Source of the DNA: a virus
Virus record (IMG/VR): IMGVR_UViG_3300001679_000073
Location: 1-22,932 of that record
Reading direction: 5' to 3' (one strand)
DNA length: 22,932 nucleotides
Made by a program: the position numbers and the translations under genes. Of the stretch, positions 9,625 to 21,671 are shown piece after piece. The notes under the pieces were generated by a model, which saw only the letters and a program-made list of their open reading frames with translations, was not told the origin of the DNA and searched no databases. Within the stretch, counting starts at the first letter, position 1, and each line of letters begins with the position of its first letter.

Positions 9625-10029
9625 TTAGAACAAAGACTGTAAGCCTTCTCTAATTTTTTTACGCCAATCTTCCTTTTCATCATCCATGCCCATATCTTGC
9701 TCTGCAAGCATTCTGTTTTGAGTAGAGAACATATCTGTGCCGTAATCTTGTGTTGCATTGTACATATCAAGTAAGCCCGGATTTGTATCCGATGGAGCGA
9801 ATAGTTTACCCATAGCCTGTGTGTCAGCAGACATCATGCCTTCACCTGCTACATTAGTATCTTTAACGATAGGTCTTATCTGAGGCTTCTGCAACGAAGC
9901 TTGACCCATACCTAAGTTAGGCTGTGTCTGTTGAGGTTGCATAAAAGACTGAAAGATAGAGTCAAACTCATCATCTGACAAGCCACCCTTCGCTTGAGCG
10001 CCTTCTAATATTTGTTGTAGGTAGCTCAC
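9625..10029 (-). CDS. Hypothetical Gln/Met-rich protein, 134 aa, GTG start
   Basis: The start is GTG at 10029, which shares its first base with the TAG stop of the preceding gene (TAGTG); GGGTGG lies upstream. Residues 1-30 form a helix followed by FDSIFQSFMQPQQTQPN, then a Gln/Met/Asp-rich disordered middle and a charged C-terminal helix with KEDWRKKIREGLQSLF. There is no recognised family. It shares a low-complexity style with the adjacent 334-aa and 393-aa proteins, so it is probably a minor virion or assembly protein of the same ejection set. That assignment is by neighbourhood only. Confidence 0.65.
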   Translation of the reverse strand: MSYLQQILEGAQAKGGLSDDEFDSIFQSFMQPQQTQPNLGMGQASLQKPQIRPIVKDTNVAGEGMMSADTQAMGKLFAPSDTNPGLLDMYNATQDYGTDMFSTQNRMLAEQDMGMDDEKEDWRKKIREGLQSLF

Positions 10030-11033
10030 TACTTACCACCCATCATACTTCCTGCAAGCGTCAGATAATCAAATAGACCCGGGTCTTTAGTATTCGTTTG
10101 TGTTTGACCTGATTGAGTAACACCTAGTGCTTGATTTAAGTAACCTAGTCCTGTAGCAGGTGCGCCTGTCATGCCACCGAATTGACCTTTAGCAGCATCA
10201 ATAAGAGCTTGTTCTAATGCTTGTTGTTGCGTGCCTTGTCTCGCTAAGTTATTAGTAACTTCCTGACCCATGCCGAAGCCTAGGTTAGATAAACTACCCA
10301 ACTGACCTGCTGCTCCCTGTCTATTCTGAGAGCCTTGTAAACCTGCTGATTGGTTAGCTAATGCTGCTTGCATTTGATTCGATATATCAAATTGGTTAGC
10401 TCTTTGGTTAGCTTGGTAAGCCTCGAAGTTCTTAGTTGCATCATACTGACTTGCTGATTGGTTTGCTAAATCAGCTTGCATTCCTGTGCCAATATCAAAT
10501 TGAGATGCCTGTTGGTTTGCTAGTCCTGCTTGCATTCTGTTTGCTATATCACCCTGTGCGAGTGATGTTGCCCTATCAAATCCACCTTGTCTAAGACCTG
10601 CTGAAGATTGAGCTAGTTGTGATGCCACATCTCTTCCCATCTCTCCCATAGCAATACCATGACGAGAGCCACCGAATGCTTTACCTGCTTGAGCTTGTGC
10701 GCCCAACATATCTAAACCTTGGTTAGCGCCTCTAAGAATATCAGCTTCATTTGCATCAATTACTTGTTGAGTATAAGGATTCATATAGGCACTCAAGTCT
10801 GTACTTGCTACCTGACCTGCCTGTACTGTAGAGCTTTGACCGGTAGGAGCTACCATAGGACTTGTTCCACCATAACCTATGGTAGCACTGTTACCGATGT
10901 TTCCAACCATGTTAGGCTGATAGCCAAGCTCACCGGTTGTTGCTAATATAGAGTTATTTATTCCCGTTGCTGCTGTTTGGTTAATATTTGAACCAATTGG
11001 TGATTGTATTTGATTGTTTCCTGGTCCTGCCAT
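10029..11033 (-). CDS. Repeat-rich putative ejection protein, 334 aa
   Basis: The N-terminal 75 residues are Gly/Asn/Thr-rich and probably disordered. Residues 82-130 carry AYMNPYTQQVIDANEADILRG and QAGKAFGGSRHGIAMGEMGR, a pattern I know from a widespread family of podophage virion proteins thought to be internal or DNA-transfer proteins. Residues 153-234 consist of about four imperfect 18-residue units of the type LANQQASQFDIGTGMQAD, predicted as Ala/Gln-rich helix. The C-terminus is Gly-rich. The ATG at 11033 has AGGGGT upstream. It follows a 127-aa protein that looks like the front half of the same family, with only three bases between stop and start, so the two products may act as one unit. 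Confidence 0.72.
   Translation of the reverse strand: MAGPGNNQIQSPIGSNINQTAATGINNSILATTGELGYQPNMVGNIGNSATIGYGGTSPMVAPTGQSSTVQAGQVASTDLSAYMNPYTQQVIDANEADILRGANQGLDMLGAQAQAGKAFGGSRHGIAMGEMGRDVASQLAQSSAGLRQGGFDRATSLAQGDIANRMQAGLANQQASQFDIGTGMQADLANQSASQYDATKNFEAYQANQRANQFDISNQMQAALANQSAGLQGSQNRQGAAGQLGSLSNLGFGMGQEVTNNLARQGTQQQALEQALIDAAKGQFGGMTGAPATGLGYLNQALGVTQSGQTQTNTKDPGLFDYLTLAGSMMGGK
10332..10577 (-). repeat. Imperfect 54-bp coding repeats (18-residue LANQ units)
   Basis: Residues 153-234 of the 334-aa protein contain about four imperfect 18-residue units with consensus LANQ-ASQFD----MQA. The phase is exact between successive LANQ or QANQ starts (residues 171, 189, 207 and 225). An 18-residue period equals five turns of an alpha helix, so one face would carry Ala/Leu and the other Gln/Asn. 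This would suit a long helical bundle. The units have diverged at the DNA level, unlike those of the tail fibre. Confidence 0.8.
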
Positions 11034-14053: not shown

Positions 14054-14434
14054 TTAGTTCAGAGTAATATCTAAGTCCGCATTCGGAATACGGAACACGT
14101 CACCTGAATCAATAGTCTTTGCAGTTGTCAATGTCGCATAAGCCATCAAGTTACCTGATGTTGCTGCATCGAACACTCCAACGTGCGTCACCGTACCCCA
14201 GTTATTAGTGGCAGTTGCCCACTCTAGTGCTGCATTGTTTGATGTGGTGTTTCCTGCAGTAGTAAATGCTACTGTCTGACGAGCGTAAGCTCCACCTGAT
14301 AATTCTGTACCGCCACCTGTCTCACCGGGTGCTGCTGTGTATAAAGCCACATATAACGTAGATGGAGCTGAGTAAGCCGAACCTGCAAATACGTGGTCTA
14401 AGATTTCTGTTTCTAAAAAGTTTGTAAATGACAT
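14054..14434 (-). CDS. Small fibre-like tail protein, 126 aa
   Basis: The pattern SFTNFLETEILDHVF, TLYVALYTAAPGETGGGTEL, YARQTVAFTTA and ALEWATATNNWGTVTHVGVF is that of a widespread small phage tail or head fibre protein family, predicted as a beta sandwich. The last residues DVFRIPNADLDITLN are typical of the family end. The ATG at 14434 shares a base with the adaptor stop (TAATG) and has AAGGA upstream. The protein has the usual family length. Its location between the adaptor and the gp10-like gene supports a neck or collar fibre role, but the exact attachment point cannot be read from the sequence. Confidence 0.8.
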   Translation of the reverse strand: MSFTNFLETEILDHVFAGSAYSAPSTLYVALYTAAPGETGGGTELSGGAYARQTVAFTTAGNTTSNNAALEWATATNNWGTVTHVGVFDAATSGNLMAYATLTTAKTIDSGDVFRIPNADLDITLN

Positions 14435-15063
14435 TATCCTTGTCCTCTTATTTTAAGTTTTAAGCCTGAGCCACTAAATCTAGCATTCTCAGATACTTCG
14501 TTTAATCGTGCAACGGAAGCGCTATACATCTGCGCCCAAATTGCAACTCTCTCATCTTCGCCTAGATACGGTGCTGAATGTAGTAGTGTGCCATAAAGGT
14601 ACACATCAGGTGCTTCTAGTAAAAGCCAATTATTAGCATTACTTGAACTAAGAGCTGTTGTCTTAGCGTAGTAAAGCAATTCTGTGTTTGTTTCAGCAGA
14701 AGGTGTTGGGTAGAACTGAAATTGACCGTCTGCGTGTGTGTAATGTGTTGCTGTTCCTGAGGCATCATTATTAGATGCTCTCTTGTCTGCCATAGCTGAC
14801 CTAGAGATTAAATCAAGAGGTGATGTTCCGTTGTCTGTGACGTGGAATCTAATAGTCTCCATCCAATCAGTAGGTATCTGTGAATATTCATCTCCACCTG
14901 ACTGTTGACCACTAGCGCGTTTCTCCATCTTCCAATGACGAATGTCTCTGTTAATCTGAGATTCAGCTAATGCAATGAAGTTATCAATAGCCGATGATAA
15001 GTCATCTCTATTAAGAAAGTCCGCTACTGCGGATTTAAGAGTTGCGTACGTGTTTATAGCCAT
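14434..15063 (-). CDS. Head-tail adaptor (P22 gp4 / SU10 adaptor-like)
   Basis: This 209-aa protein likely forms the ring directly below the portal. The N-terminal helices with YATLKSAVADFLNRDDLSSA and FIALAESQINRDIRH, the central strand region with YSQIPTDWMETIRFHV, then QFQFYPTPS and LLYYAKTTAL, and the late helices with LYGTLLHSAPYLGEDERV match the phage adaptor family common in SU10-like and many marine podophages. P22 gp4 has the same role at 166 aa. No peptidoglycan-hydrolase motif is seen here. ATG at 15063, with AGGGA about 12 bases upstream. It is followed without gap by a fibre-like protein. Confidence 0.85.
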   Translation of the reverse strand: MAINTYATLKSAVADFLNRDDLSSAIDNFIALAESQINRDIRHWKMEKRASGQQSGGDEYSQIPTDWMETIRFHVTDNGTSPLDLISRSAMADKRASNNDASGTATHYTHADGQFQFYPTPSAETNTELLYYAKTTALSSSNANNWLLLEAPDVYLYGTLLHSAPYLGEDERVAIWAQMYSASVARLNEVSENARFSGSGLKLKIRGQG

Positions 15064-15078
15064 AATTTCATTATATCC

Positions 15079-18000
15079 CTATTTGATTGAGGTTGGAGGG
15101 TTATTGTTGTACTTGAGTATATGGTCAACATAATCTGCTTCGCTACCTGTCCAATTATCTTGTTTACGCCAACGATTTATCTGCTTTTGTGACGGAGTAT
15201 TACTATTAAATTTTTGGTATCTGTTCTTATAAGCAGACTTCATGCCTTTCTTTATAATTGCATCAGTGAAATGCTCTAATGAGTCTTTTCCGCCTTCGTG
15301 CTTAGTGATAGCCTTAATCATCTTGTACATATTCTCATCAGACAATTTGGTTGTAGCAGATATACCGACATCTCTAGCCACGTCCTTGATGTATGACTTA
15401 GTGTCGTTCTCTTTGCCGTTTGGAGCGTACTTATTAAGAATCTTAGTGATTGTATCAAGTCCACGCTTACGTTTGTTTGTTAGGTCTCTAGTCAATGCTC
15501 TGATGCCGTTCTCAGGCTTATCAAATACAACAAAGCTACCTTCGGCTACAGTTCCACCTGACTCTGTACCTGTCATGCCGTTCCACTTAATGCCAAAGTC
15601 TTTAATGTTGCCCGGATTGTTACTACGAACATTACGTACTACTTTAGGTTTTTTAACGCCATCAAGAACGCCATTCATAGGAATTTCATCTTCAGCTTGT
15701 GATTCTGCACCACCTGCTAATAGACCACCTGTAGGTATAGCAACCGCTGCCTTATTAGGCTTGGCTACTGATGTAGCTCCATACATTGATTGACCCTTAT
15801 TAACATTGGCTTTTAATCCAGGAGTTATGTCTATGTAGTTAATTTCTGTCGGGTTTGGAACTTTATCACCGCCATATTTCGTTGAAAAATCAGTAAATTC
15901 AATCTTTGTCTTGCCTGTATTAGACTGATTCTGTTTAGCAAACTTCTTAGCAAAGCCCGGTAGTTTCTTATCGTACATATTTTCGTACAACTCTCTGTAT
16001 CTTTCTGAGTATAAGCCTACTTGCTGTTGTGAGTTAGTCCAAGCAACTCTATCGTAGTCACCTTCTGAAGCAATCTTCATAGCACGCTTAAATGCCATCT
16101 CCTGCCACTTGTCATTTTTCAGAGGAGCGTCAGGAACAGTTCCCATAAGGGCAAGTTTTTCTTTTTCTATCTCATCAATCCTTTTTAATATTCTTGGGGT
16201 TACATCATTGAAACCTGGGTTATTTTCCTTAGCAACTGCGTATTCACGCTTCAAGTTATCAGCCTCTGTTCCCAACTTCATAATCTTGCGTTCATTCTCT
16301 TTGGTTGAATAACCACCCTTTCGTCCTGACTGATGCCAATCAGATTGTAGCTCTTCAATGAACAATACTTTGTTGCCATCTATGTCAGTTCTATCGGATA
16401 CACGCAAATGTCCTACTACGTTGTCTTCATCAAAATGTCCGCCTCTATAATCTTCACCACTTAAAGACTTAGATGTTATAGGAATCTCTCTGTAAGTATT
16501 TACATCAAGACCTTTTTGTGTAAAGTCAGAGTATTTAGTCTGTGAATCAGTGCCGTATCCTATGTCATTATCATAAGCATATTCTCTAATTTGTACGTTA
16601 GCCTCATTGATACTATAAACAGGTTGACCGCCATTAAGATAGTCTCCATCAGGGTCTCGGATTGTTATCCCTATGTCTTCATTACCTGTTGCAGTAAAGT
16701 TGTGTCCATCAGTACCTGTGTTCCACTCATAAAAAGGATTCTCTGCATAATCTGCCTCAGCAATGTCATACGTAATGTCATCTATATCAAAATCTAAGTC
16801 ATCTATATCACCGTCATCTATCTTTTTACCAATCTGACCTGCCCAATCGTCTACGTAACCATCAGTAGTTCCTCTTTTGTTCTGAAGTTCAATCAAATCT
16901 TGTTCGAAGCTTTTTTCTAGTTTTTTTAGAGATTGTTCTTTTGAATAATATGAGGAGTCTTCGACCGATAGGTTGTTATCATTAATATATTTATTAACAT
17001 TTTCAACCATATTTGCTGAATCCTCATGAAGTACACGGTCTAGTTCACGTTGCTTAATCTTTGCATCGTCAATATACATATCAATCGTTTTAGGGTACTT
17101 CTCTGGGTCAGATTTATGTAGATGTTCAAACAACCTATTCATCTCAAATTCGTCACTAGAGTTCAATTCATACTTTATGTCTTCAGCACGATTATAGATA
17201 TAATCAGTATCATCAAGAACAGTCACATTTCCACCGTCTGCTCCTTCATACCAAGCAGGGTCATCTAATTGAGTTTCATTTAGTTGGTCTCCTCCTGCAT
17301 CTGAACTTCCCAGATGTTGTGTCTCGTCTAGCTGAGTCTTGTTTTTACTGATGTGATTAAGAAGACCCGTCTTAGTTACACGCTCATCCTTTGTTTTAGC
17401 ATTCGATAAGTAGTCAAGAATGCCTGTCTCTTTCATCTCATCTACAGTTACACCGTTCTTTTGCATGAACTGTCTAATGTGGTCAGGATGATTAGTCTCT
17501 TGCTTTAATTTGTTTACTACGTTCTCTGACTCTGAATAGAAACCTAGTTCATCAATCTGTGTTCTTGCATCAACACCGGGCTTAACCATACTCTTTCTAA
17601 GCGTCTGTTCGGTCTCAACACCGGGTATCTTACCTGCCATAGTCTCTGCTTTATTTGCAATATCGCCTAACTCTTCTAGTATCTTAGCCTTTAGATTTGG
17701 GTTGTTCTTGATGGCTTGATAACCTACGATAGCAGCATCAAATGGCGCACCTAATAATCCTTCCTCTAAGAAGTTTTTACCGTATGTTTTTAATTTCTCT
17801 AATGAACTAGACTCATCATTAGTGTCTGCCATCAAGTATTCAGTGAATGCGTTACGGTATTCTGTATCCTGAATCATTGTTGATAAGTTGCCCTCTGTAG
17901 GGTCTGTAGTAGCTGTACCACCAAATATAGCACCTACATACTTCACAAGGTTAGGAGCTTGACCTAATAGCTTTACTCCTGCTGTTGCTCCGCCTAAGTA

Positions 18001-19575
18001 TGAACCTGCAACCTCTACACCTTCACCAAGCATAGGGTAGTTATAGTTAGGTTTGCTAGGGGTTAGTATCTCTCCGTCATTCTCATCAAAATACTCTTCC
18101 CCTAAAGCTACATTACCTACAGTCTTTCCAAGTTTTACTGCATTTCCAACACCCCGTGAATAAGCACCGGGTATAGCACTTAAAACATCTTCAGTGCCTC
18201 TATTCAATACATTGTTAGCTAGAACCTCATCGCCACGCTTCATAGTTTCCCAAGCATCTGATGCTGAATCTTTTATATTGCCGTAAATGTCTGTAGCAAG
18301 TGGACCTAGAACATCTCCAACTGTATCGATAGCATCTGAACCAAACTGTTTAGCCGTATCTATACCTTGATTGATATTGAAGTTTGTTTCGGCATTCTCA
18401 TTCCAAAACTTAGTAGCATTAGGGTTAGGTGTAAATGTAGGCTTAACTTCAGGCTCAGGAATAACATTAGGTGTAGTTCCGTTTAATGCGTTCATTTCTG
18501 TCATTGGGTCGTAACCAAGTCTGCTGATATTAGCTTCTTTAGCTGAACTATCCCATTGGAATCTGTTTGCTTTGTCTAGTGCTTGGTCAACGCCTTGCTC
18601 ATAAGCATTAGCATCGGGAATGATATTGCCAAATGAGTCTCTGTCTGAAAGGTTCATAGTTGAGCGATGCTCTTCTAATATGTCACTCATACCGAAAGAA
18701 CCCATAGCTTTCTCAAACTGTAAGTCAGTTAGTGCCTTGCCTTCTTTCTTAAACATTGCCATCATTTCCATTGCTTTAGATGGGTCTACGTTTGGTGTTA
18801 GGTCTTTGAATGTTCCTGTATCTCTCTGTGCTATTCTCTCACCGCCTTGGTAACTACTCATAAGGTTACGAGCATCATCAAAGTTAGTTTGTTCAGGTAG
18901 CCATGGTGCGATACTGCCTCTATTATCTTGCGCTACTGACTCTACTGCGTCACGAGGTCGTAACGAAGTCGTAGGTGCTTGCTGTCTACTCCAAGTCTGA
19001 TTGTCGCCTAATGAGCCGTAAGCTCCTTCAGGTATTTGTTGACCTTGACCTTGTGAATAAGACTGACCTATTGGACCTAAGTATTCTGTTGGTTCAGGTG
19101 TTGGTATGTTGAATGATGATGCCTTTCTATGACCTTCAATAAGAGGTGTTCTTGGGTCTGCTTGGTAAACATTGCCTTGACCATCATATCTAGTCTCTCT
19201 ACTTGATGGAGCATGAATAGCATTGAATCTGTCGTGTTCTTCTTGTGGAACTCTATTAACGCCCGGTTGATTCATTAAGTCAGGAGTAGGTTGTGCCTTT
19301 GGAGCTACATTCTGTGGCGTAAACTGCTCACCACTGTAGTAATTGTCTCCATAGTTAAGCAATGAAGGTTCTTCAGGTACGTCAAATCTCTGGGTAGATA
19401 CTTCTTGTCTAGCTGTTGTGTGTCCTTGAGCTAAAGGAGCTTCAACTCGTGACTGATAAGCATTGCCTTCAGTATCGAATCTTATCTCCCAATTATCTTG
19501 AGTTGGGTCATAGACTGTGCCACCACCTGTAGAAGATACACCTGATTGACCTAATAAACCGTCTAATAAACCCAT
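15079..19575 (-). CDS. Giant virion protein: polyvalent-type domain plus C-terminal peptidoglycan-hydrolase-like domain
   Basis: This 1498-aa protein has several parts. Residues 28-76 and 125-167 are a duplicated motif (FDTEGNAYQ and YDGQGNVYQ, each followed by a PL-GH step). Residues 260-460 are helical and disordered. Residues 517-552 are Gly/Ala-rich and hydrophobic. Residues 678-755 and 1010-1267 match the conserved blocks of a domain of phage and conjugative-element polyvalent proteins: VTKTGLLNHI; TYREIPIT; GHFDEDNVVGHLRVSDRTD; LFIEELQSDWHQSG; VPDAPLKNDKWQEMAFKRAM; YDRVAWTNSQQQ. They are separated by a highly acidic stretch (770-950). Residues 1313-1450 (RSNNPGNIKD, FVVFDKPENGIRALTRDL, NDTKSYIKDVARDVGI, KHEGG) resemble a cell-wall hydrolase domain of virion proteins. 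The ATG at 19575 has AAGGAAGAG. It is probably packaged and injected, opening the cell wall. No frameshift or stop is seen. Confidence 0.83.
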   Translation of the reverse strand: MGLLDGLLGQSGVSSTGGGTVYDPTQDNWEIRFDTEGNAYQSRVEAPLAQGHTTARQEVSTQRFDVPEEPSLLNYGDNYYSGEQFTPQNVAPKAQPTPDLMNQPGVNRVPQEEHDRFNAIHAPSSRETRYDGQGNVYQADPRTPLIEGHRKASSFNIPTPEPTEYLGPIGQSYSQGQGQQIPEGAYGSLGDNQTWSRQQAPTTSLRPRDAVESVAQDNRGSIAPWLPEQTNFDDARNLMSSYQGGERIAQRDTGTFKDLTPNVDPSKAMEMMAMFKKEGKALTDLQFEKAMGSFGMSDILEEHRSTMNLSDRDSFGNIIPDANAYEQGVDQALDKANRFQWDSSAKEANISRLGYDPMTEMNALNGTTPNVIPEPEVKPTFTPNPNATKFWNENAETNFNINQGIDTAKQFGSDAIDTVGDVLGPLATDIYGNIKDSASDAWETMKRGDEVLANNVLNRGTEDVLSAIPGAYSRGVGNAVKLGKTVGNVALGEEYFDENDGEILTPSKPNYNYPMLGEGVEVAGSYLGGATAGVKLLGQAPNLVKYVGAIFGGTATTDPTEGNLSTMIQDTEYRNAFTEYLMADTNDESSSLEKLKTYGKNFLEEGLLGAPFDAAIVGYQAIKNNPNLKAKILEELGDIANKAETMAGKIPGVETEQTLRKSMVKPGVDARTQIDELGFYSESENVVNKLKQETNHPDHIRQFMQKNGVTVDEMKETGILDYLSNAKTKDERVTKTGLLNHISKNKTQLDETQHLGSSDAGGDQLNETQLDDPAWYEGADGGNVTVLDDTDYIYNRAEDIKYELNSSDEFEMNRLFEHLHKSDPEKYPKTIDMYIDDAKIKQRELDRVLHEDSANMVENVNKYINDNNLSVEDSSYYSKEQSLKKLEKSFEQDLIELQNKRGTTDGYVDDWAGQIGKKIDDGDIDDLDFDIDDITYDIAEADYAENPFYEWNTGTDGHNFTATGNEDIGITIRDPDGDYLNGGQPVYSINEANVQIREYAYDNDIGYGTDSQTKYSDFTQKGLDVNTYREIPITSKSLSGEDYRGGHFDEDNVVGHLRVSDRTDIDGNKVLFIEELQSDWHQSGRKGGYSTKENERKIMKLGTEADNLKREYAVAKENNPGFNDVTPRILKRIDEIEKEKLALMGTVPDAPLKNDKWQEMAFKRAMKIASEGDYDRVAWTNSQQQVGLYSERYRELYENMYDKKLPGFAKKFAKQNQSNTGKTKIEFTDFSTKYGGDKVPNPTEINYIDITPGLKANVNKGQSMYGATSVAKPNKAAVAIPTGGLLAGGAESQAEDEIPMNGVLDGVKKPKVVRNVRSNNPGNIKDFGIKWNGMTGTESGGTVAEGSFVVFDKPENGIRALTRDLTNKRKRGLDTITKILNKYAPNGKENDTKSYIKDVARDVGISATTKLSDENMYKMIKAITKHEGGKDSLEHFTDAIIKKGMKSAYKNRYQKFNSNTPSQKQINRWRKQDNWTGSEADYVDHILKYNNNPPTSIK
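19075..19494 (-). repeat. Duplicated N-terminal motif of the giant virion protein
   Basis: Residues 28-76 and 125-167 align with the same order of features: an aromatic or basic strand, D-x-x-GN-x-YQ, an Arg/Pro step, PL-x-x-GH, then a short Pro/Glu-rich linker ending in YG or LG. The spacing between copies is 97 residues. The DNA has diverged, so the duplication is old or under selection only at protein level. It may bind two copies of a partner, such as the portal or a chaperone. Confidence 0.7.
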
Positions 19576-19975: not shown

Positions 19976-21268
19976 TCAAACAATTCCTTTTACGTTTCTT
20001 TTCAAGGGCTTACCCCATGTCTCGGTCATAGGTCTATAGCCGATTGCTAAATACCTGAATGCATCAGCGCCATGTGAACTCCAATCATGTCTAGGTCTTG
20101 AGCGCCAAGTCTTACCATTCTCATCATAATCACGGGAATAGTTAATCAGACAGTCAATACCCTTCTCGCACTTCTTAGAATCAAACCAACATCTATCCAA
20201 CATTGAACGAACTGCCTGAATACCATCATCAACCATAAGCATAGGAGCTATCTCTACGTTCCTAATACCTAGGCTATCTAATACCTCAAGCCGTGACTTA
20301 CCTGAGCCTAGTTCTCTAACTCTAACGTCATGTGGCAAGATGTGTTGGTCGTATATGTAACCTTTCTCTTGTAGCACTCTAGCATAGTGGTCTAATCCTA
20401 CGCCTGATGCTTCGTAATAATCAATGATGTGTATCTCTGTGCCGATATATTGTGCAAACCAAATAGCTGTTGAATCACCTACGCCTAAATCCCAACTTGT
20501 TATTACAGGCTTATCTCGGCTATATCTAACCTTACCTATTCTGTCTTCTTCTCTAGCTCTACGCATCTCAGTCGTATAGTAAGAGCCTTCACTGAATACT
20601 AAGAATCCGCCTTCCCAAATATGGTCATACATATCAGGACGCTTGGCTTTATCTTCTAACCTCTGTTCTTCCAACACTTCAGGAAACCATGGATTGTCAT
20701 TGTAATTGATTTCGCATATCTTAGAATTATCGGGCGTATTAATTCTAAAGCGTTCATGTGTTGCGCTGTACTTGGATTCAGGATTATAGGAAATCCACAC
20801 TTCGCTGCCTTCCTCTCTCACGGTAGGCAGGAGCTTCATAAATGCCATTTCGGACACTCCTTCGGCTTCATCCACCCACGCTAATAAGATACGAGCCTTT
20901 GACTTGATAGCATCTAGTGAGCGTCTTAGACCAACAAACGTATATGAGATACGACCATCTTTAGACCTGATGTATTTCTCACCAACGTCATAGTAAGCCT
21001 CTAGCCAAGGCAATGAACGTATAGCAGTCTTGATTTCCTCTAGTGATGAGTCCTCTAATGAGTTCATAAACTCACGACCACATAGTATCTGTCCACTCTT
21101 ACCGCTTCTGCCCCACTCATAACCACGTACAGCAGTCATTAGTGCAAAGGTTCTTGTCTTGCCTGAACCACGTCCACCATAAGCAATGCGATACCTAGCA
21201 TCACCTGTGAATATAGGCTTTAGCTTAGGAGGTACGTTAATCTGTGCTTTCTTCTTCTTCGTAGTCAT
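19976..21268 (-). CDS. terL: Terminase large subunit
   Basis: This 430-aa protein is the DNA-packaging motor and headful nuclease. The N-terminal ATPase has Walker A GGRGSGKT (residues 31-38), Walker B ILLAWVDEAE (127-136) and a following SYNPES coupling motif (160-165). The C-terminal RNase H-like nuclease has SWDLGVGDSTAIW with Asp260, HDVRVRELGSGKSR with Asp314, and SSHGADAFRYLA with Asp402, the three expected metal-binding acids. It belongs to the Terminase_3/6 type, somewhat shorter than P22 gp2 (499 aa). I choose ATG at 21268 (MTTKKKK), with GGTGAAG upstream; a TTG at 21292 would add eight residues but has no better site. The gene overlaps the terS end by 32 bases, so translation is coupled. 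Confidence 0.95.
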   Translation of the reverse strand: MTTKKKKAQINVPPKLKPIFTGDARYRIAYGGRGSGKTRTFALMTAVRGYEWGRSGKSGQILCGREFMNSLEDSSLEEIKTAIRSLPWLEAYYDVGEKYIRSKDGRISYTFVGLRRSLDAIKSKARILLAWVDEAEGVSEMAFMKLLPTVREEGSEVWISYNPESKYSATHERFRINTPDNSKICEINYNDNPWFPEVLEEQRLEDKAKRPDMYDHIWEGGFLVFSEGSYYTTEMRRAREEDRIGKVRYSRDKPVITSWDLGVGDSTAIWFAQYIGTEIHIIDYYEASGVGLDHYARVLQEKGYIYDQHILPHDVRVRELGSGKSRLEVLDSLGIRNVEIAPMLMVDDGIQAVRSMLDRCWFDSKKCEKGIDCLINYSRDYDENGKTWRSRPRHDWSSHGADAFRYLAIGYRPMTETWGKPLKRNVKGIV

Positions 21269-21671
21269 CTTCACCGTAGGCAACAATCTCAATTACTGTT
21301 GGTTGCATTGAGCCATCGCTTGATTTAAGGTCTGTTTCAGTCTTAGCAATCATGCCATGATTAACTCCCAATATAAGGGTTGCAGTCTTCTCTTTTAATA
21401 GACCGCTTAAAGCGCCATTGATAAGAGTTCTGCCCTGTTTTGTTATTAAACCCCTAACCGTGTCGGAAAATTCAGGGTAATGTTTCTCCCATTCGTAGAT
21501 AGTATCCCTGTCAACACCTAGCACACCCGCCAAGCCTTCAACCATAGGTATGACATCTTCATACTTAGTATCGTAGTTCTTTATATAGTCCTTTGCTAAC
21601 TCACAAGTCTTATCGTTGTATTTAGTTGGTCTCCCTAATGGTAGGAAGTTATCTGTCTTCTTGGCTGTCAT
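21237..21671 (-). CDS. terS: Terminase small subunit, P22 gp3-like
   Basis: This 144-aa protein recognises the packaging site and directs the large subunit. The opening GRPTKYNDKTCELAKDYI, then IPMVEGLAGVLGVDRDTIYEW (helix-turn-helix) and FSDTVRGLITKQGRTLINGA, match the P22 gp3-type DNA-packaging family; P22 gp3 has 162 aa. The C-terminus is acidic (YGEDDYEEEEST), as often seen where it meets the large subunit. The ATG at 21671 shares one base with the stop of the 59-aa zinc-ribbon gene (TAATG) and has only a weak ribosome site, so it probably depends on translation of that gene. A packaging site is likely to lie in or near this gene, as in P22, but I cannot locate it by eye. Confidence 0.9.
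   Translation of the reverse strand: MTAKKTDNFLPLGRPTKYNDKTCELAKDYIKNYDTKYEDVIPMVEGLAGVLGVDRDTIYEWEKHYPEFSDTVRGLITKQGRTLINGALSGLLKEKTATLILGVNHGMIAKTETDLKSSDGSMQPTVIEIVAYGEDDYEEEESTD

Follow-up and report, generated by a model that had tools for sequence, protein, structure and literature searches.

Lysozyme-type domains belong to the published set of polyvalent domains and are frequent in polyvalent proteins, a DdrB-ParB/lysozyme fusion being found among late phage genes (Iyer et al. 2017, PMC5512222). The idea that such domains open the wall while effectors enter was published in the same work (PMC5512222). For the SU10 ejection protein gp20 a transglycosylase activity has been assigned (PMC9509320), and T7 gp16 has been modelled across the periplasm, the membrane and the cytoplasm (PMC8954989). 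Muralytic activity of the Enc34 domain has been shown by assay; Glu131, Tyr95 and Trp79 are its key residues, and a beta-N-acetylglucosaminidase mechanism has been proposed for it (PMC8943055).

The locus described here encodes a giant protein, P0001, which is considered rather likely to be a phage-type polyvalent protein with a C-terminal wall hydrolase and an exchangeable payload, and probably a virion ejection protein. The coupling of a polyvalent-type block to a wall hydrolase, which the initial annotation of this DNA had pointed out, is not new: such fusions have been known since 2017 (PMC5512222), and PHROG 7348, annotated as 'endolysin', already spans the module of P0001. New are the comparison of one gene slot among sister phages, a fold hypothesis for an unnamed and widespread module, and a localised divergence between near-identical orthologues.

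The giant protein and its late-operon setting

The window, i.e., the whole 22,932-base IMG/VR virus record, is probably a fragment of a genome. By its gene content it derives from an uncultured SU10-like short-tailed phage, since it encodes a Terminase_3 protein together with a portal, a major capsid protein (MCP) and an adaptor of the SU10 type. The order on the minus strand is TerS, TerL, a 117-aa ORF, P0001, the adaptor, several tail/ejection-type ORFs, the portal, a scaffold-like ORF and the MCP. P0001 stands among late or virion genes, as is expected of a polyvalent protein. The boundaries and length given for the ORF in the initial annotation are exact (it has an ATG start, and the plus strand over the same interval has many stops), and the podophage late operon described there is indeed present. 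The features are listed in Table 1.

Table 1. Features of P0001 and its two flanking genes in the window
Feature	Position	Strand	Remark
P0001, 1498-aa giant protein	15079..19575	-	between TerL/orf117 and adaptor
N-terminal segment, residues 1-130	19186..19575	-	common to window, L012, L183 and L194 variants
Mildly hydrophobic stretch, residues 440-650	17626..18258	-	peak at 520-552, under transmembrane level
GFYS motif domain, residues 678-755	17311..17544	-	first half of the two-part polyvalent-type module
Central domain, residues ~990-1275	15751..16608	-	second half of module; predicted divergent GNAT-like core
Helical insert of central domain, residues 1092-1144	16144..16302	-	
PHA02564/Enc34-type peptidoglycan hydrolase domain (by homology), residues 1313-1445	15241..15639	-	
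C-terminal tail, residues 1446-1498	15082..15240	-	
TerL (Terminase_3)	19976..21292	-	upstream neighbour, kept across slot comparison
SU10-type adaptor	14434..15063	-	downstream neighbour, kept across slot comparison

Orthologues of P0001 on other contigs are identical or 84-97% identical to it, and a further orthologue of 1344 aa is 48% identical, with dN of 0.36 against dS of 1.36. Between variants the conservation is lowest at residues 440-650, and the last ~40 residues of the tail are missing in L012 and L194. No stretch in all 1498 residues reaches transmembrane hydrophobicity.

P0001 has no Pfam match above the cut-off, and hence no named LPD, ART or PBECR domain of its own. A match to SseB at residues 694-735 was taken as chance (22 bits against a cut-off of 155). 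A releasing or processing peptidase is frequent in polyvalent proteins; in P0001, the Pfam domain search found no metallopeptidase domain to release the payload.

Several other minus-strand ORFs of the window may be mentioned. The 345-aa ORF at 535-1572 contains repeated LDGVTSTxxEINxLDGVT units, which are like phage tail-fibre repeats. The 656-aa ORF at 6450-8420 matches phrog_5880 and, narrowly short of the curated cut-off, Gp-FAR-1 (E 6e-6); it is possibly a helical ejection-type protein. The 127-aa ORF at 11037-11420 matches phrog_4287, 'DNA ejection protein' (E 1.7e-4), and the ORF at 10029-11033 may be its continuation. The 121-aa ORF at 11422-11787 matches phrog_22172 and phrog_7642, both of unknown function, and may resemble small GNAT-like virion proteins.

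The wall-hydrolase domain and the two-part module

The C-terminal domain of P0001 is matched by PHROG 873 ('endolysin') over residues 1310-1469 (E 1.7e-38), by Gp29 of PDB entry 9vvp (E 6e-21) and by the Enc34 endolysin, PDB 7q47 (E 1.7e-11). Its landmarks are NNPGN at 1319-1323, Y1383, Y1395 and the catalytic E1427; in 57 unique relatives the equivalents of E1427 and of Y1395 are always present, and the residue at 1383 is aromatic in 56. The homology to the PHA02564/Enc34 type extends across the domain and includes the catalytic Glu, Tyr and aromatic positions. By this homology the domain is taken to be an active peptidoglycan hydrolase, probably a beta-N-acetylglucosaminidase; its fold is read from a solved homologous structure, both structure predictions having been made for the central domain. 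The N-terminal SLT domain of the T7 gp16 type is absent, the hydrolase of P0001 being C-terminal and of the PHA02564 type, and no SLT match to P0001 was obtained in the Pfam and PHROG searches. Some other matches to the hydrolase domain are annotated as 'protein inside capsid D' or as structural proteins. The same domain also occurs in a 748-aa ORF (L243, 3144-5387) with ArdC-N and a below-cut-off match to an M78-type peptidase.

The module consists of residues 678-755 (GFYS...) and about 990-1275, the latter including the blocks LFIEELQSDWHQSG (residues 1071-1084), VPDAPLKNDKWQEMAFKRAM (1147-1166) and YDRVAWTNSQQQ (1174-1185). An HMM search of the collected loci with a profile of residues 930-1300 detected 184 ORFs, and the 678-755 motif accompanies the central block in 174 of them. 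By scans, relatives of the module were located on 593 or more viral contigs and at 111 genome loci; direct tblastn found it in five phage records and six plasmids. On a Variovorax plasmid (L019, 7440-9323) the module protein is encoded directly upstream of transfer genes of the DotD/TraH and IcmT/TraK types. Giant phage proteins commonly carry this block without annotation (at least 600 viral stretches from a single scan). It has no covering Pfam model, searches of Pfam, NCBIfam and PHROG gave no useful name, and a literature search for the block EIQSDWHQ found none; 'unnamed' means here without a Pfam model, and the module may coincide with one of the 40 LPDs of Iyer et al., some of which perhaps lack such a model.

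In 19 full-length module carriers the Pfam domains are LPD22 (4 of 19), ART-PolyVal (3), LPD38 (2), LPD3 and PBECR3, and there is no Pfam wall hydrolase among the families listed for them. Judged from the sequences, joining of the module to a wall hydrolase has occurred more than once, since an SLT domain is joined to it in one ORF of 5218 aa (1 of 49 module-holding records), but it looks uncommon. The label 'polyvalent-type' is supported for P0001 by association, through the shared module and the swapped payload in the sister phage L194. Disparate activities within one polypeptide, as in polyvalent proteins, are represented by the muralytic domain and the unrelated module.

The module takes other forms elsewhere. 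A 2407-aa protein of Dolichospermum phage Dfl-JY45 (L014, 3142-10362) has two copies of it together with four ART-PolyVal stretches, and proteins of ~550 aa in gammaproteobacterial and other genomes (L134, L154, L157, L164 and others) represent a compact, insert-free form.

The three blocks singled out in the initial annotation are conserved far beyond chance, as judged by the orthologues and the 184 ORFs, and its block at 678-755 proved to be a separate conserved motif that accompanies the 1010-1267 block. Its suggestion of a hydrolase-like C-terminus is confirmed by sequence (phrog_873, 9vvp, 7q47). Its polyvalent-type assignment stands in so far as relatives carry Pfam polyvalent domains, and does not extend to a named domain in P0001 itself. 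The outcome that it had set against itself, neither a polyvalent-type nor a hydrolase-like fold, is not what was found.

To assess the fold of the central domain, residues 930-1289 were modelled by AlphaFold2 with 109 natural sequences (pLDDT 82.6, pTM 0.72). A PDB search with this model gave no significant match, and many of its weak matches were GNATs. Because the inserts diluted this search, the compact natural relative L154 was modelled (pLDDT 90.2, pTM 0.83). In a Foldseek search against the PDB, GNAT-fold structures made up 48 of its top 50 matches (31 acetyltransferases and 17 chains of ICL2, the C-domain of which is GNAT-like; PMC6788997), with probabilities up to 0.92 and E-values above 0.01, none being 0.001 or less; the TM-scores of the matches to the central domain are 0.1-0.4. 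Comparison by hhalign with 26 GNATs (PF00583) gave 3-4% probability, which is not significant, and nevertheless aligned helix 3-strand 5 correctly. The CoA loop of GNATs, R/QxxGxG/A, follows strand 4. This loop was not seen in the central domain, where LFIEELQSD is followed by WHQSGRKGGY and the conserved glycines 1084 and 1088 misfit the pattern. In view of the weak structural scores, the null profile comparison and the unseen CoA loop, the central domain is predicted to have a divergent GNAT-like core, and it is not filed as a GNAT.

Nine residues, Y1028, E1030, H1047, R1058, E1075, Q1077, S1078, D1079 and W1080, are the same in all 109 aligned sequences. The EELQSDW block was the search pattern, so the invariance of E1075-W1080 is partly circular, while Y1028, E1030, H1047 and R1058 lay outside it. 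Fixed polar residues in a predicted GNAT-like core suggest an enzyme that would modify a host molecule after delivery. The fold hypothesis, the residue list and the compact natural members make the module testable.

One slot with several contents, and a locally diverged insert

TerL and the adaptor flank the slot in every close relative in which both ends are present. The slot contains the module and the hydrolase in the window type and the L012 type, and a divergent module with the hydrolase in the L183 type. In L194 the N-terminal segment (42% identity with the window over residues 1-130) and the hydrolase (68%) are kept, and the middle is replaced by a PBECR5 domain (40.5 bits against a cut-off of 25) with a sub-threshold ART-PolyVal match. 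The hydrolase alone, in ORFs of 222-290 residues, fills the slot in L206, L208 and L209. In L060, L070 and L075 there is the module alone, and it extends exactly up to the expected start of the hydrolase; the compared contigs are fragments, and this module-only status refers to the slot gene.

An N-terminus common to P0001 and the hydrolase-only proteins of L206 and L208 was considered and rejected, no relatedness being detectable. As the hydrolase-only N-termini are unlike that of the window, common descent of all slot occupants is seen only through the shared domains and the position. The fusion of hydrolase and module is not obligate, because hydrolase-only and module-only genes fill the same slot in sister phages. 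The slot pattern suggests a wall-opening protein able to carry exchangeable cargo. With its four kinds of content, the slot offers a naturally occurring setting in which to ask if virion proteins that cut the wall serve as carriers of host-directed effectors.

The orthologues in L004, L005 and L007 are 93-97% identical to P0001 overall. Counted in 20-residue bins from 1101, 29 of 52 differences in L004, 19 of 32 in L005 and 19 of 45 in L007 are in or adjoin the helical insert; the bins were picked after inspection of the data, and the binomial values are descriptive only. The span 1101-1150 accounts for most differences among near-identical orthologues, and L007 has 17 more in bins 1221-1260, which correspond to the C-terminal hairpin. 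All the invariant residues listed above are unchanged in the three orthologues. dN is not above dS in the central domain (0.08 against 0.13 in L004); therefore, a diverged segment acquired through recombination accounts for the insert pattern as well as selection does.

Proposed function and comparison with known systems

By analogy with SU10 gp20 and T7 gp16, P0001 would be packaged in the virion and would leave the particle with or ahead of the DNA. The C-terminal PHA02564-type domain would open the wall locally during genome entry, a step for which its homology speaks, and the payload upstream of it would act on the host, in the cytoplasm. This payload would be the GFYS and central-domain module in the window phage, a presumed enzyme with a presumed substrate, and PBECR5 with the ART-like stretch in L194. 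A more tentative proposal, which must be regarded as doubtful, is that the module represents an unrecognised, divergent GNAT-like enzyme family which phages and conjugative plasmids deliver to modify a host molecule, with a rapidly changing helical insert tracking host targets or inhibitors, and that the SU10-like slot carries exchangeable effectors.

Alternatively, the module may have no enzymatic activity and serve the ejection apparatus as a structural or scaffolding component with a GNAT-like shell, its variation reflecting assembly partners and not host conflict. The unseen canonical CoA loop and the weak structural matches are in line with this, as are the module-only proteins in the same virion-gene slot; however, Y1028, E1030, H1047 and R1058 do not vary across 109 diverse sequences, which is typical of a catalytic site, and conjugative plasmids and short proteins encoded on chromosomes contain the module too. 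A purely structural role appears unlikely. It is quite improbable that P0001 is an endolysin or another enzyme of end-of-infection lysis with extra domains, nothing being injected, even though the homologous domain of Enc34 belongs to a genuine endolysin encoded in a lysis cassette (PMC8943055) and phrog_873 and 7348 are both labelled 'endolysin'. Wherever both flanks are present in a close relative, the gene is enclosed by TerL and the adaptor and does not form part of a recognised holin/spanin cassette; its product is 1498 aa long with no segment at transmembrane hydrophobicity. Moreover, the hydrolase domain is also found in a multi-copy phage protein of 1295 aa whose structure is solved (9vvp Gp29) and in the matches with capsid-interior or structural annotations.

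The payload might also remain in the particle or the periplasm and act on the envelope (e.g., on wall or lipid), hydrolase and module sharing a target. Such a role would fit the joining of the module to a wall hydrolase in this lineage and its independent joining to SLT in the 5218-aa ORF, but most of the tested module carriers have no Pfam wall hydrolase (0 among the 19 full-length ones; SLT in 1 of 49), and carriers hold ART, RNase-like and LPD domains, which are expected to act in the cytoplasm; an envelope target is considered very improbable. An ejected polyvalent protein with an exchangeable payload is the reading preferred here, and it may be compared with the known systems as follows.

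The catalytic domain of the Enc34 endolysin (PHA02564; 7q47) is homologous to that of P0001 and agrees with it in the Glu, Tyr and aromatic positions. Enc34 is, however, a small endolysin encoded in a lysis cassette and has a membrane domain at its C-terminus, whereas the P0001 domain ends a giant protein among virion genes. The same hydrolase domain is part of a large phage protein in Gp29 (9vvp; 1295 aa, 4 chains) and in the Vibrio phage 'protein inside capsid D'; in Gp29 it is N-terminal, and the remainder has no match to P0001. GNATs (AtaT, NatD, SSAT) and the ICL2 C-domain head the list of structural matches to the central domain and resemble it in predicted order of strands and helices. 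The central domain differs from GNATs in that no score is significant and the canonical CoA loop was not seen, and by its large insert and other invariant residues.

SU10, a structural relative of the window phage by portal, MCP and adaptor, and T7 have a muralytic domain on a podophage ejection protein (gp20 and gp16, respectively), as is proposed for P0001. The available portions of the reports on these proteins describe no polyvalent module, and P0001 in turn has no SLT match. The polyvalent proteins of Iyer et al. (2017) are, like P0001, very large late-gene products that combine a peptidoglycan hydrolase with conflict-type domains, and relatives of its module share polypeptides with ART-PolyVal, LPD22, LPD38, LPD3 and PBECR3, as those proteins do. 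In contrast to them, P0001 has a payload without a Pfam model, a PHA02564-type hydrolase and no detected processing peptidase, and its payload is exchanged between close relatives within one slot.
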